The notes beneath the pieces were generated by a model, which worked only from the letters and a program-made list of their open reading frames with translations, had not been told where the DNA came from and ran no database searches. DNA of 32,494 bases, from positions 1 through 32,494 of the forward strand of contig NZ_JAENYR010000040.1 of the NCBI RefSeq assembly GCF_016841685.1. Direction: 5' to 3'. Shown piece after piece: positions 8,441 through 32,484 of the stretch (position 1 is the first letter of the stretch; each line of letters opens with the position of its first letter). The DNA is from Thiohalomonas denitrificans (GTDB taxonomy: Bacteria; Pseudomonadota; Gammaproteobacteria; Thiohalomonadales; Thiohalomonadaceae). Both the position numbers and the translations under genes were made by a program.

Positions 8441-8755
8441 GTAGGGCGCATTCTTGATGCGTTACATTCGTCCCATAGAGCCGATTGATTTTCAGAACGC
8501 ACCGACCATCGCATGGGCTACATCCAAATGCGCCAGCTCCGAGAGACGACTACAAGAATGTAGGAGATAAAATAGTGCCTGGAGCAATTATCGATGGTTT
8601 AGGGTGAAGGCCATAAGAAGGATCACGACTTGATTTGATCTCCTTAATCCTTTCCTTCTCCCGGGGGAGAAGGAAAGGCTTCGTTGGGCGCCGGGCATTT
8701 TGGGAGCCGGAGCAGCATCAACGCCGGAGCGGTGCATTTGAAGAATGCACCCTAC
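8441..8755. repeat. GTAG-headed inverted REP element, long form (315 bp)
   Basis: Begins GTAGGGCGCATTCTTGATGC and ends TTTGAAGAATGCACCCTAC. The right end is a textbook REP on the minus strand: GTAG, then GGTGCATT, a short loop and AATGCACC. The middle contains a perfect 14-bp hairpin (CCTTTCCTTCTCCC 8649-8662 / GGGAGAAGGAAAGG 8665-8678). The same 315-bp layout occurs at 17562-17876. There is no gene; short open frames across it are chance. Confidence 0.85.
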
Positions 8756-15274: not shown

Positions 15275-15395
15275 GTAGGGCGCATTCTTGGTGGGACGCC
15301 TCCATTTCCGGAAAGCCGATTACCGTGCGGAATGCTCCGTACCCGTGTGGGGGCATGTCCAAATGCGCCGGCTCCAAACATCGCCTAACGGTGCC
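15275..15395. repeat. half unit of the GTAGGGCGCATTC repeat family
   Basis: Begins GTAGGGCGCATTCTTGG and contains the central CAAATGCGCCGGCTCC segment, but is interrupted by the head of the next unit. It therefore represents one arm (121 bp). The same half-then-full arrangement occurs at 32154-32276. Confidence 0.75.
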
Positions 15396-15605
15396 GTAAG
15401 GCGCATTCTCGATGCGCCACCCCCATTTTCACAAAGCCGCCCGGTTATTCGGATGCCCCAACCGGTATGGAGGCAGATCCCAAATGCGCCGGCTCCGTTC
15501 GTCTCCGAAATGGTGCATTTGAAGGTGCCCCACAATTGGTTGGTGCACTCTGTGAATTGATCGGCTTTGTGAAAATGGGGGTGGCGCATCGAGAATGCAC
15601 CCTAC
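15396..15605. repeat. full inverted REP element (210 bp)
   Basis: The best-preserved long palindrome of the family. The first 44 bases (15396-15439, starting GTAAGGCGCATTCTCGATGC) match the reverse complement of the last 44 (15562-15605) at about 42 positions. The centre is a second hairpin formed by CAAATGCGCC and GGTGCATTTG. Each end is itself a GTAR-headed hairpin (GGCGCAT tctcg ATGCGCC). No coding potential is credible here. Confidence 0.88.
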
Positions 15606-15700
15606 AAGCCACCCTATTCACGAAGCCGATTATCCTGCCGAATGCCCCATACTTCGTGTGAAGCACGTCCAAATACGCCGGCTCCGCCCATCACCGAAAC

Positions 15701-16142
15701 GGTGCATTTGAATGCGCCCCTACAATGGTTGGTACGCTCTGTAAATCGATCGGCTCGATTGAAAGGCGGTGGCATATCAGAATGCACCCGACGTGGGTTC
15801 CGCGTAGGGCGCATTCTCAACGCGCCACCCCGGCCCCGCAAAGCCGATCAATTTCCGGAATCCACCAACCGATGTGCGGGCACTCCCCAAATGCGCCGCG
15901 ATTCCAACCGCTTGGAGAAACGGTGCATTTGAAAGCGCCCCTACAATGGTTGGTACGCTCTGTAAATCGATCGGCTCGATTGAAAGGCGGTGGCATATCA
16001 GAATGCACCCGACGTGGGTTCCGCGTAGGGCGCATTCTCAACGCGCCACCCCGGCCCCGCAAAGCCGATCAATTTCCGGAATCCACCAACCGATGTGCGG
16101 GCACTCCCCAAATGCGCCGCAATTCCAACGGCTTGGAGAAAC
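15701..16142. repeat. 221-bp tandem duplication in the REP cluster
   Basis: Two copies (about 15701-15921 and 15922-16142) follow each other with a fixed 221-base offset. They are almost identical over the whole length; the differences are near the ends (for example GCGATTCCAACC against GCAATTCCAACG). Each copy carries one head GTAGGGCGCATTCT (15804 and 16025). The near identity points to a recent duplication. Confidence 0.88.
15804..16014. repeat. inverted REP element, about 211 bp, altered right end
   Basis: The head GTAGGGCGCATTCTCAACGC is at 15804. The right end reads AGAATGCACCCGAC, with CTAC changed to CGAC. It is part of the tandem duplication. Confidence 0.75.
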
Positions 16143-16237
16143 GGTGCATTTGAATGTGCCCGAACCAATGGTTCGGTGCACTCTGTGAATTGATCGGCTC
16201 TGTTAAAAGACGGTGGGATATCAAGAATGCACCCTAC
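16025..16237. repeat. inverted REP element (213 bp) abutting the RAYT gene
   Basis: The head GTAGGGCGCATTCTCAACGC is at 16025 and the tail AGAATGCACCCTAC ends at 16237. The tail overlaps the last four bases of the transposase gene, which is on the minus strand. Confidence 0.85.
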
Positions 16238-16767
16238 GGTTCGCCGGCGATTATTTCGACGTCTGGAGCACCGGCCCAGTCGTTCGGATAAACCCCATCA
16301 GCCACCATTTTTGAAAACGTAGAGTACGGCCAATCCGATACGCGCTCCACATATCCGTGCTTCACCGGGTTGAAGTGGATGTAATCCATATGTACACCGT
16401 AATCGGTTTCATCCCGAATGCAGTGCTCCCAAAACCGGCGCTGCCAGATGCCTCGTTCGCTACGTGCCAAACGATTCGAAGTGCGGTATTCAGTGGAGGA
16501 AAGGTGCCTGGAAAAATAGGATTTGATAGAGCGCCAGCGGGTGGTGAAATCCATGTCCCCGGGCGGCAGTGTCCAGATGCAATGCATGTGATCAGGCAGG
16601 ATAACCCATGCGTCGATATGAAACGGACGCTTACGTCGGACCACTCTGACAGCGGTGCGCAGCAGCTGGATCCGATCCGTCAGCAAACTGTCTCCATGGC
16701 GGACAAGAAGGTTCACCGTAAAGAAATAGCAACCTCCCGGGACGCGATAACGGCGATAGTTTGGCAA
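16234..16767 (-). CDS. REP-associated tyrosine transposase (RAYT, Y1/HUH family)
   Basis: A 177-residue single-strand-type transposase of the IS200/IS605-related RAYT group, thought to spread REP sequences. The N terminus MPNYRRYRVPGGCYFFTVNL is a RAYT signature. The HUH metal-binding motif is DHMHC (His60, His62) inside WVILPDHMHCIWTLP. The probable catalytic tyrosine is Tyr129 in DYIHFNPVKHGYV, and GIWQRRFWEHCIRDE (106-120) is also conserved. The frame is intact. The start is TTG 16767 with a strong AAGGAG six bases upstream. The stop TAG (16236-16234) is built from the GTAG head of the adjacent repeat, so gene and repeat are joined. It sits alone inside the densest repeat cluster of the window. 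Confidence 0.92.
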   Translation of the reverse strand: MPNYRRYRVPGGCYFFTVNLLVRHGDSLLTDRIQLLRTAVRVVRRKRPFHIDAWVILPDHMHCIWTLPPGDMDFTTRWRSIKSYFSRHLSSTEYRTSNRLARSERGIWQRRFWEHCIRDETDYGVHMDYIHFNPVKHGYVERVSDWPYSTFSKMVADGVYPNDWAGAPDVEIIAGEP

Positions 16768-16873
16768 GGCTCGCTCCTTGTAGCGTCGGTGTGCATCGTT
16801 TTGATATCACATCGCGACATGTATTTGAAGCTTCCTTGCAATGCGGAGCTCCGTTCGGTCCGGAACGGTCCCC

Positions 16874-17080
16874 GTAAGGCGCATTCTCGATGCGCCACTC
16901 TCGTTTCCCCAAAGCCAATAACCTGCCGAATGCTCCATACCCGTGTGGAGGCAAATCCCAAATGCGCCGGCTTCGATAATCTCCGAAACGGTGCATTTGA
17001 ATGTGTCGCACCAATGGTTGGTGCACTCCGTAAATTGATCGGCTTTTAAAAGATGGTGGCGCATCAAGAATGCACCCTAC
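16874..17080. repeat. inverted REP element (207 bp) upstream of the RAYT gene
   Basis: The head GTAAGGCGCATTCTCGATGC is at 16874 and the tail AGAATGCACCCTAC ends at 17080, with central CAAATGCGCC and GGTGCATTTG arms. It begins 107 bases upstream of the RAYT start, so the transposase gene is bracketed by repeats on both sides. Confidence 0.85.
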
Positions 17081-17539
17081 AAGAGATAACCTCGCGCGCA
17101 TCGGGTAAATCCCAAATGCGCCGGCTCCGATAATCGCCGGAACGGTGCATTTGAATGTACCCCAACAGTGGTGGATGCACGCTGTAAATTGATCGGCTCG
17201 ATTAAAAGACGGTGGGATATCAAGAATGCACCCTACAAGCCATATCCCCGAAGCCGGTTGATTTTCGGAGCCCACAACCACCGCATCGGGCACATCCCAA
17301 ATGCGCCGGCTCCGATAATCTCCGGAACGATGCATTTGAATGTGCCCCAAAAATGGTGGGTGCACGCTGTAAATTGATCGGCTCGATTAAAAGACGGTGG
17401 GATATCAAGAATGCACCTTACAAGCCATATCCCCGAAGCCGGCTGATTTTCGTAGCCCACCAATCACCGCTTCGGGCACGTTCCAAATGCGCCGGCTCCG
17501 ATAATCGCCGGAACGGTGCAACTGAAGAATGCACCCTAC
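17081..17539. repeat. chain of three headless repeat arms
   Basis: Tails AGAATGCACC(C/T)TAC end at 17236, 17421 and 17539, without GTAGGGC heads between them. The blocks from 17181 and from 17366 are near-identical with a 185-base offset. Central hairpin segments (CAAATGCGCCGGCTCCGATA) recur in each. This looks like growth by tandem duplication of partial units. Confidence 0.8.
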
Positions 17540-17561
17540 GAGGAATGGAGCGATAGCCCGC

Positions 17562-17876
17562 GTAGGGCGCATTCTTGATATGCCAACCTCATCTTCAAAA
17601 AGCCGATTGACTTCCAGAGTACGCCAGTCATCGCATGGGGCACATCCAAATGCGCCGGCTCCGAAAGACGGCCACAGGGATGCAGGAGGCAAAATAACAC
17701 TTGGAGCAATTATCGATCGTTTGGGGTGAAGGCCATAAAAAGGCCACGGCCTAATTTGATCTCCCTCATCCTGGCCTTCTCCCGGGGGGAGAAGGAAAGG
17801 CTTCGTTCGGTGATGAGGCCTTTTGGGAGCGGAGGAGTATCAACGCCGAACGATGCACTTGAAGAATGCACCCTAC
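17562..17876. repeat. GTAG-headed inverted REP element, long form (315 bp)
   Basis: The head GTAGGGCGCATTCTTGATAT is at 17562 and the tail TTGAAGAATGCACCCTAC ends at 17876. Its length and layout are the same as the copy at 8441-8755, including GGAGCAATTATCGAT, GTGAAGGCCATAA and the internal CCTTCTCCC-type hairpin. The two copies differ at many scattered positions, so neither is a recent copy of the other. Confidence 0.85.
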
Positions 17877-25873: not shown

Positions 25874-26011
25874 GTAGGGCGCATTCTGAGGGGCCACTTC
25901 CTTTCATAAAGCTGACGAATTTTCAGAGCCCACCAATCATCGCCGGGGGCACACCCAAATGCGCCGGCTCCGACCATCACCGAAACGGTGCATTTGAAGA
26001 ATGCACCCTAC
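25874..26011. repeat. GTAG-headed inverted REP element, short form (138 bp)
   Basis: The head GTAGGGCGCATTCTGAGG is at 25874, the centre reads CAAATGCGCCGGCTCCGA, and the tail GGTGCATTTGAAGAATGCAC then CCTAC ends at 26011. It joins a full left arm directly to a minimal right REP, giving a third size class. Confidence 0.85.
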
Positions 26012-31843: not shown

Positions 31844-32050
31844 GTAGGGCGCATTCTGACAGGCCACCCCATTCCCGCAAAGCCGATGACCTCGCGGAAA
31901 ACTCCCCACCCCGTGTGGGGCACATCCCAAATGCGCCGACTCCGACCACCACCGAACGGTGCATTTGAATGTGCCCCAACCATGGTGGGTGCAATCTGTA
32001 AATTGATCGGCACTATCAAAAGACCGAGGCCTATCAAGAATGCACCCTAC
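31844..32050. repeat. inverted REP element (207 bp) upstream of ccmC
   Basis: The head GTAGGGCGCATTCTGACAGG is at 31844, the centre has CAAATGCGCCGACTCCGA and GGTGCATTTGAATGTGCCCC, and the tail AGAATGCACCCTAC ends at 32050. It starts 149 bases upstream of ccmC. I see no gene or clear promoter in 31695-31843. Confidence 0.85.
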
Positions 32051-32276
32051 AGCCACCCCGTTCCCACAAAGCAATGACCTTGCGGAATGCTTCGTACCCC
32101 GTGTAGGCACTTCCCGAATGCGCCGACTCCGATCATCTGCGAACCGGTTTGACGTAGGGCGCATTCTCGATACGCCACCCCCATTTCCACAAAGCCGCCG
32201 GGTTATCCGATGCACCAACCGGTGTGGAGGCACCTCCCAAATGCGCCGGCTCCGATCATCGGCGAACCAGTTTGAC
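32051..32276. repeat. two left-arm half units in tandem
   Basis: A headless arm (32051-32153) is followed by a headed arm beginning GTAGGGCGCATTCTCGATAC at 32154. The headed arm repeats almost exactly with an offset of 123 bases (next head at 32277). Confidence 0.8.
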
Positions 32277-32484
32277 GTAGGGCGCATTCTCGATACGCCA
32301 CCCCCATTTCCACAAAGCCGCCGGGTTATCCGATGCACCAACCGGTGTGGAGGCACTTCCCAAATGCGCCGGCTCCGATAGTGGCCGAAACGGTGCATTT
32401 GAATGTGCCCCAACCATGGTGGGCGCAATCTGTAAATTGATCGGCGCTATCAAAAGACCGAGGCCTATCAAGAATGCACCCTAC
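32277..32484. repeat. full inverted REP element (208 bp)
   Basis: The head GTAGGGCGCATTCTCGATAC is at 32277, the central CAAATGCGCC and GGTGCATTTG arms are present, and the tail AGAATGCACCCTAC ends at 32484. Sequence after it (AGCCACCCCA) looks like the start of another arm running out of the window. Confidence 0.85.

Follow-up and report, generated by a model that had tools for sequence, protein, structure and literature searches.

The way in which REP sequences spread has yet to be proven, and a block of 2602 bp in the genome of Thiohalomonas denitrificans raises the question anew: there, a RAYT transposase gene lies among copies of a single repeat family, and one may ask whether the gene moved the repeats. 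We analyzed this block (positions 15275-17876) within a stretch of 32,494 nucleotides, henceforth the window, and compared it with the rest of the genome, with a sister species (G019) and with 18 other genomes of the family. Published work, cited here and below for the passages available to us, provides the scale. For the REPINs of P. fluorescens, in which two inverted REPs end one hairpin-forming unit, lengths peak at 71 bp and at 110 bp (PMC3116915), and the partners of most REP dimers lie 20-100 bp apart (PMC3733652). REPs gather near their own rayt, in regions of up to two hundred kilobases, in three marine gammaproteobacteria and in Thauera, and strains without a rayt hold on average a tenth of the REPs (PMC2817692).

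The earlier note on this DNA had described an intact HUH/Y1 RAYT, which our searches confirm. The open reading frame is intact, and its product matches Pfam Y1_Tnp barely above the cut-off (24.4 bits, cut-off 23), the NCBIfam equivalog REP_Tyr_transpos well above it (208 bits, cut-off 80) and, as the sole PDB match at E<=1, the E. coli TnpA_REP structure 4er8 (TnpArep; E=5e-56, 90 of 151 aligned residues identical). The HUH motif reads HMH at residues 60-62, and the catalytic Tyr129 precedes an NP at 133-134, the Y---NP context given in PMC6006769. With residue roles taken from PMC8266576, Gln109 and Arg118, the counterparts of Gln95 and Arg104 in E. coli TnpA_REP, are kept, and a Ser takes the place of Lys82, the residue through which that enzyme touches the bulge of its REP. 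The same source describes a C-terminal extension of group-2 TnpA_REP with a Gly-Glu that contacts GTAG; a GE is present in the C-terminal tail here, outside the 4er8 alignment, which ends before it, and lies within the last 14 residues in 46 of 80 relatives. Judged by its sequence, the protein is a group-2 RAYT/TnpA_REP with conserved catalytic residues.

The gene is flanked on both sides by inverted GTAG REPs, belonging to the units at 16025-16237 and 16874-17080, and its 3' end reads GAA CCG TAG, the TAG belonging at the same time to the GTAG with which the adjoining unit is headed. Around the RAYTs of the 80 relatives, a strict hairpin finder, which overlooks some hairpins visible by eye, found a match downstream of 22, upstream of 33 and on both sides of 11. 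We rejected an IS200/IS605 element, whose gene moves with its ends in several copies: the gene is single among the matches, and the other three RAYTs of its group in this genome are 49-56% identical to it. A RAYT tree, in which 13 of 20 family-genome rows were missing and one row was in the wrong frame, yielded no firm sister (support 84/77 with Thiobaca trueperi). The G+C content of the gene is 54%, and 61% at third positions, compared with 62% and 82% in the nearby YchF, a compositional hint at foreign origin.

Around the gene, the described family of GTAG-headed REPs was borne out, and the block matches its description in outline: 1881 bp are unit sequence, 534 bp RAYT (4 bp are common to both) and 191 bp neither. 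The block contains four complete units of 207-213 bp, one of 315 bp and several part-units, and accounts for 15 of the 24 heads found in the window at <=2 mismatches (Table 1). Further units lie beyond it at 8441, 25874 and 31844-32484. A stretch of 221 bp has been duplicated in tandem (15696-15916 and 15917-16137, 99% identity). The cluster at the contig end (31844-32494) and a cluster at the start of contig C132 map to the same place in G019, so the assembly break probably falls inside one array.

Table 1. Units of the family, RAYT genes and associated repeats in T. denitrificans (Td) and G019; C numbers denote contigs.
Feature	Sequence	Positions	Strand	Details
Unit with insert	Td, window	8441-8755	+	315 bp; orthologous place in G019 is a 139-bp short unit
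Part-unit	Td, window	15275-15394	+	left arm and beginning of centre, without right end; exact left head; profile 1-125, 68.9 bits
Complete class A unit	Td, window	15396-15605	+	210 bp; head GTAA
Unit without left head	Td, window	15606-15792	+	profile 19-214, 94.6 bits
Complete class A unit	Td, window	15804-16013	+	210 bp
Complete class A unit	Td, window	16025-16237	+	213 bp; RAYT stop codon inside its right head
RAYT gene	Td, window	16234-16767	-	177 aa; TTG start; group 2 (E. coli TnpA_REP type)
Complete class A unit	Td, window	16874-17080	+	207 bp; head GTAA
Three part-units with right ends	Td, window	17104-17539	+	17104-17236, 17241-17421, 17426-17539; tandem period 185 bp
Unit with insert	Td, window	17562-17876	+	315 bp; insert in the middle carries a GGCCTTCTCCCGG-type stretch
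Short unit	Td, window	25874-26011	+	138 bp
Contig-end cluster	Td, window	31844-32484	+	class A units 31844-32050 and 32277-32484 complete, part-units between
Further RAYT of the group	Td, C47	16558-17067
Further RAYT of the group	Td, C101	28745-29245
Further RAYT of the group	Td, C139	14663-15142
Hybrid REP array	Td, C132	12852-13590
Hybrid REP array	G019, C4	242546-242836
Hybrid REP array	G019, C4	253693-253916
TATGTTCTGTTCCACAGCTCC	G019, C4	216428, 226381, 317222		beside right or left unit ends

The make-up of the units was read from 495 kb of T. denitrificans and 453 kb of G019, a non-random sample picked around heads (<=2 mismatches), which contains 42 and 17 complete units, respectively, counted from left head to right head. 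The left head is GTAGGGCGCATTCT and the right head, read inwards, GTAGGGTGCATTCT; left heads mostly carry GGC and right heads GGT, so the units are directional. In an alignment of 20 units (out of 22 non-redundant ones of 202-220 bp without N), all have the left arm in common, the central hairpin (AAATGCGCC...GGTGCATTT) barely varies and the right arms are of two unrelated kinds. The central hairpin is common to all complete units examined except a 67-bp remnant. What differs is the right half: absent in short units (127-143 bp in the two species together), a fold-back arm in class A (206-213 bp), an unrelated arm in class B (199-220 and 265 bp) and an insert in a fourth class (291-315 bp). 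Classes were assigned by length and short motifs, which leaves borderline units unsure; on this basis, T. denitrificans has 10 short units (129-143 bp), 9 of class A (206-213 bp), 20 of class B, two with the insert (both 315 bp) and the remnant, and G019 has eight short units, two of class A, five of class B and two with an insert (291 and 310 bp). Class B units of T. denitrificans measure 210-220 bp, with three 265-bp copies from one array and three N-containing units of 202, 202 and 278 bp. The unit classes are thus common to both species. Fold-back arms, which had been ascribed to each complete unit, hold for class A, that is, 9 of the 42 in T. denitrificans, and not for the other classes; likewise, the 207-213-bp units with paired 44-bp ends exist, but as just one class among several.

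The strength of folding varies between examples. In class A, the arms 15396-15463 and 15538-15605 are 81% complementary across 68 nt, and the unit 16874-17080, folded as single-stranded DNA, scores better than 200 of 200 shuffles on each strand (z -5.3 and -6.05). The right head of a short-class example pairs with an arm of the central hairpin as an 8-bp stem, and the whole short unit folds moderately better than shuffles (z -2.5; 2/200 equally good). A GTAG head with its hairpin is clear in the class A example and at the short-class right end. Class B right ends alone fold weakly (mean -2.4 kcal/mol across 28 nt), so that not all ends resemble a good REP. Changes on both sides were seen in 2 of 25 consensus pairs of unit ends, and since the paired ends are nearly invariant, the alignment is no proof of a selected fold. 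Because a C precedes most units (39/42 in T. denitrificans, 15/17 in G019) and a G follows most (34 and 13), the palindrome may be one pair longer than drawn here. An Rfam search gave one match, below the gathering score, and no convincing RAYT pieces were seen inside units in the stretches examined.

The head is restricted to the genus, here represented by two species. The genome-wide search that the earlier note had proposed found 109 exact copies in T. denitrificans, 51 in G019 and 0 in the 18 other genomes of the 20 compared. At <=1 mismatch T. denitrificans has 122 copies in one search and 135 in another, and G019 has 68, with 0-4 in the 18 others, which is about chance level; the reversed pattern of GTAGGGCGCATTCT, used as a control at this threshold, returned 0 in T. 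denitrificans. Our catalogue of 128 T. denitrificans heads covers stretches around 100 of 122 head places and is incomplete, heads at C132:12916-13303 being left out.

T. denitrificans has 13 Y1 loci at E<=0.01 and four RAYTs of the group studied here. A different GTAG REP adjoins each of the three further RAYTs, on C47, C101 and C139, and none of the three has a G019 match at E<=1e-20. Heads of the studied family (<=2 mismatches) are absent within the stretches examined, at most 1.5 kb on either side, around the 12 other Y1 loci of T. denitrificans and of 8 in G019; no second RAYT flanked by the same ends, which would have spoken against the pairing of this gene with these units, was thus found at these loci. 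The REP at C101 has three copies, every one beside its RAYT. That at C139 has 22 copies in T. denitrificans, 8 of them on the C139 contig, and five in G019, with none in the region of the RAYT locus. The C47 REP is dispersed, with 4 of 29 copies in G019 and 6 of 21 in T. denitrificans (<=1 mismatch) falling in that region, all within hybrid arrays that carry right ends of the studied family. With four RAYTs of one group in a single genome, each beside a different REP, specificity could be compared against one and the same background. The hybrid arrays, found in both species, alternate the C47-type REP (GTAGGATGGGGTGAGC) with those right ends. In addition, GTAGGTTGGGGTGAGT, dispersed in both genomes, turns up frequently when the C47 REP is matched at 2 mismatches; it is probably another repeat family.

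The window aligns to 218-237 kb of contig C4 of G019, mostly at 82-91% identity. What G019 carries at the RAYT locus is a single short unit of 141 bp (C4:226241-226381) with a damaged right GTAG; G019 has no match to the RAYT studied here at E<=1e-20, and no convincing remnant of the gene was seen in the stretches examined. Units concentrate around the RAYT locus, and they do so in G019 as well. On C4 lie 34 of the 68 G019 heads (<=1 mismatch), all inside 159-317 kb. The 158 kb around the orthologous locus hold 19 of 39 clusters, with a maximum of 10 per equal-size window in 2000 random trials. With growing distance from the locus, clusters per 100 kb run from 20.0 (0-15 kb) through 10.0, 11.7 and 1.7 to 0 (100-178 kb), and other contigs have 0.63. 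Seven contigs of T. denitrificans are syntenic with C4:148-337 kb, and between them they hold 66 heads of the catalogue of 128 and 15 of 34 clusters. Units equally abundant in relatives without any RAYT of the subgroup had been named as evidence against its role, and the outcome is divided: G019, with no match to this RAYT, still has its 51 exact heads, though against 109 in T. denitrificans.

From the density peak at the orthologous locus we infer that the RAYT was lost in G019 rather than gained in T. denitrificans and that it probably stood there already before the two species parted. As a source of an outgroup, the 18 other family genomes gave no alignment spanning the empty site, and our searches of open-licence papers, broader than this topic, found no literature on a footprint left by a lost RAYT. 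Two sister species, with and without the gene, offer natural before-and-after sites, and their value lies in a density peak that they have in common and in several unit sites at which they differ. Of the differing sites, all seen except C124:18160-18374 are not clean. This one is a whole class B unit in T. denitrificans with none in G019, the flanks being 94-95% identical with a 7-bp repeat on both sides.

Across the left 125 nt, identity between units from different sites reaches no more than 92% in T. denitrificans and 90% in G019. Tandem arrays with a unit head number 13 and 5 in the stretches examined (leaving out C35:32670, a loose-pattern match, and counting C132:12852 once); their repeats range from 76 to 100% identity, and in several arrays from 92 to 100%. 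As no pair between sites exceeds 92%, dispersal appears to be old and tandem growth younger, and a recent look is limited to some tandem arrays. In each of the 25 clusters that hold several units the orientation is the same throughout, as would fit an origin by tandem duplication. The relation of similarity to distance is weak: unit similarity falls with distance in G019 (Mantel r -0.30, p 0.017) and less clearly in T. denitrificans (-0.14, p 0.12). Flanking direct repeats were rejected as target duplications, having no fixed length and mean lengths near chance: the longest word shared by the 40-nt flanks of isolated units averages 5.4 against 5.1 expected in T. denitrificans (n=13) and 5.4 against 4.9 in G019 (n=17), and words of at least 7 occur in 3 of the 13 (7% expected). 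Clusters run against co-directional genes in 21 cases and with them in 9; because loci are common to both species and gene calls rough, we do not claim a transcription-linked orientation rule.

We consider it probable that the block constitutes a REPtron, in which a group-2 RAYT is accompanied by long REP dimers of modular build that spread locally, grew in tandem and outlasted the gene in G019, where it was lost. A unit end, as single-stranded DNA, would form a hairpin headed by GTAG, and the RAYT would bind this head and nick beside it. The segment between the inverted heads (~130-315 nt, with any middle) would be cut out or copied in single-stranded form and then inserted at another place, in most cases no farther than ~90 kb from the RAYT gene. 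Binding, cleavage and the single-stranded intermediate are taken by analogy from other TnpA_REP enzymes (PMC8266576); movement of the units would then be the work of the RAYT, and preferential local insertion may have caused the density peak. This spread would predate the split between the two species or roughly coincide with it, in-place tandem duplication would have turned single units into arrays, and the RAYT, at the locus in the common ancestor, would have been lost in G019, where one short unit and the peak are left. In its favour speak the identity of the RAYT and its kept residues, the stop codon within a GTAG head, the different REPs beside the three further RAYTs, the confinement of the head to two species, the peak around the locus in both genomes, the lack of C101 and C139 REPs in that region, the missing heads at the other Y1 loci examined and the lack of a fixed target duplication. 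Several findings count against this account: G019, without the RAYT, retains about half of the heads, Lys82 is replaced by Ser, class B right ends fold poorly and covariation is almost nil, while an identity of at most 92% between sites speaks against recent dispersal. More specifically, and with considerable doubt, the RAYT may move composite single-stranded units of ~130-315 nt, with exchangeable right half, middle and inserts, mainly within ~90 kb. If such local action is true, the unit peak still marks the address of the former gene after its loss.

On a reading that we find rather unlikely, the units now change by recombination, slippage and segmental duplication only, the RAYT is a domesticated or passive neighbour, and the peak goes back to an old array that duplicated locally. 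The tandem arrays in both genomes, the single orientation of multi-unit clusters, the ceiling on identity between sites and the persistence of units in G019 all suit it. It accounts poorly for the many units that sit between unrelated flanks and for the class B unit at C124 that is absent in G019, even if a G019 deletion via the 7-bp repeat is possible. That the region itself is permissive or selects for units, for example at transcript ends, with the RAYT there by chance, we regard as improbable. Clusters between divergent genes are indeed few (3/29 in T. denitrificans and 2/26 in G019, by a rough gene finder), but the REP families of C101 and C139 lack the peak, and the C47 copies found in the region are all at hybrid arrays. 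The long inverted arms of class A also recall the long terminal inverted repeats of MITEs mobilised by a DDE transposase. That the units are such MITEs we judge very improbable, given that the flanks of the 13 and 17 isolated units show no target duplication of fixed length and that in class B the right arm does not repeat the left one in inverted form.

With the REPtron reading preferred, the kind of system is a known one; new are the unit length, the modular make-up and the peak in a genome that lacks the gene. The locus resembles the E. coli-type REPtron (PMC8266576) in its Y1 HUH family, the inverted GTAG hairpins at the gene borders and a RAYT-specific REP, and differs from it in having 127-315-bp units, exchangeable right halves and Ser for Lys82; its C-terminal GE lies beyond the alignment. 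As in a REP dimer, the inverted pair recurs as one dispersed unit (42 and 17 complete copies); its heads stand 127-315 bp apart and not ~20-100, and we therefore file the units as a variant of the REP/REPIN dimer. The earlier note's remark that they exceed known REP dimers holds against the lengths given in PMC3116915 and PMC3733652. Like REPINs (PMC3116915), the units end in two inverted REPs and their tandem arrays take in flanking DNA, but REPINs are dispersed, whereas these units cluster round the RAYT. The 24 GTAG REP families of PMC3733652, compared here by their description, likewise carry GTAG at the outer ends, have structured spacers, form hybrid dimers between families and lie between co-directional and convergent genes, with spacers mostly of 20-100 bp. 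Crowding near the gene matches the rayt-proximal accumulation described in PMC2817692; unlike there, the peak extends to a sister genome without the RAYT, which keeps about half the heads rather than an average tenth.

In Pseudomonas abyssi (L061), a second genome for locality, 7 of 9 heads are on two contigs, wherever these lie relative to the RAYT. A long stretch of T. denitrificans (C35:31951-36846) with repeats of 120- and 180-bp period and without a clear unit head is possibly a repetitive gene. Finally, TATGTTCTGTTCCACAGCTCC (<=2 mismatches) occurs three times in the G019 stretches and 0 times in those of T. denitrificans, adjoining unit ends, and is perhaps a small element that enters them.
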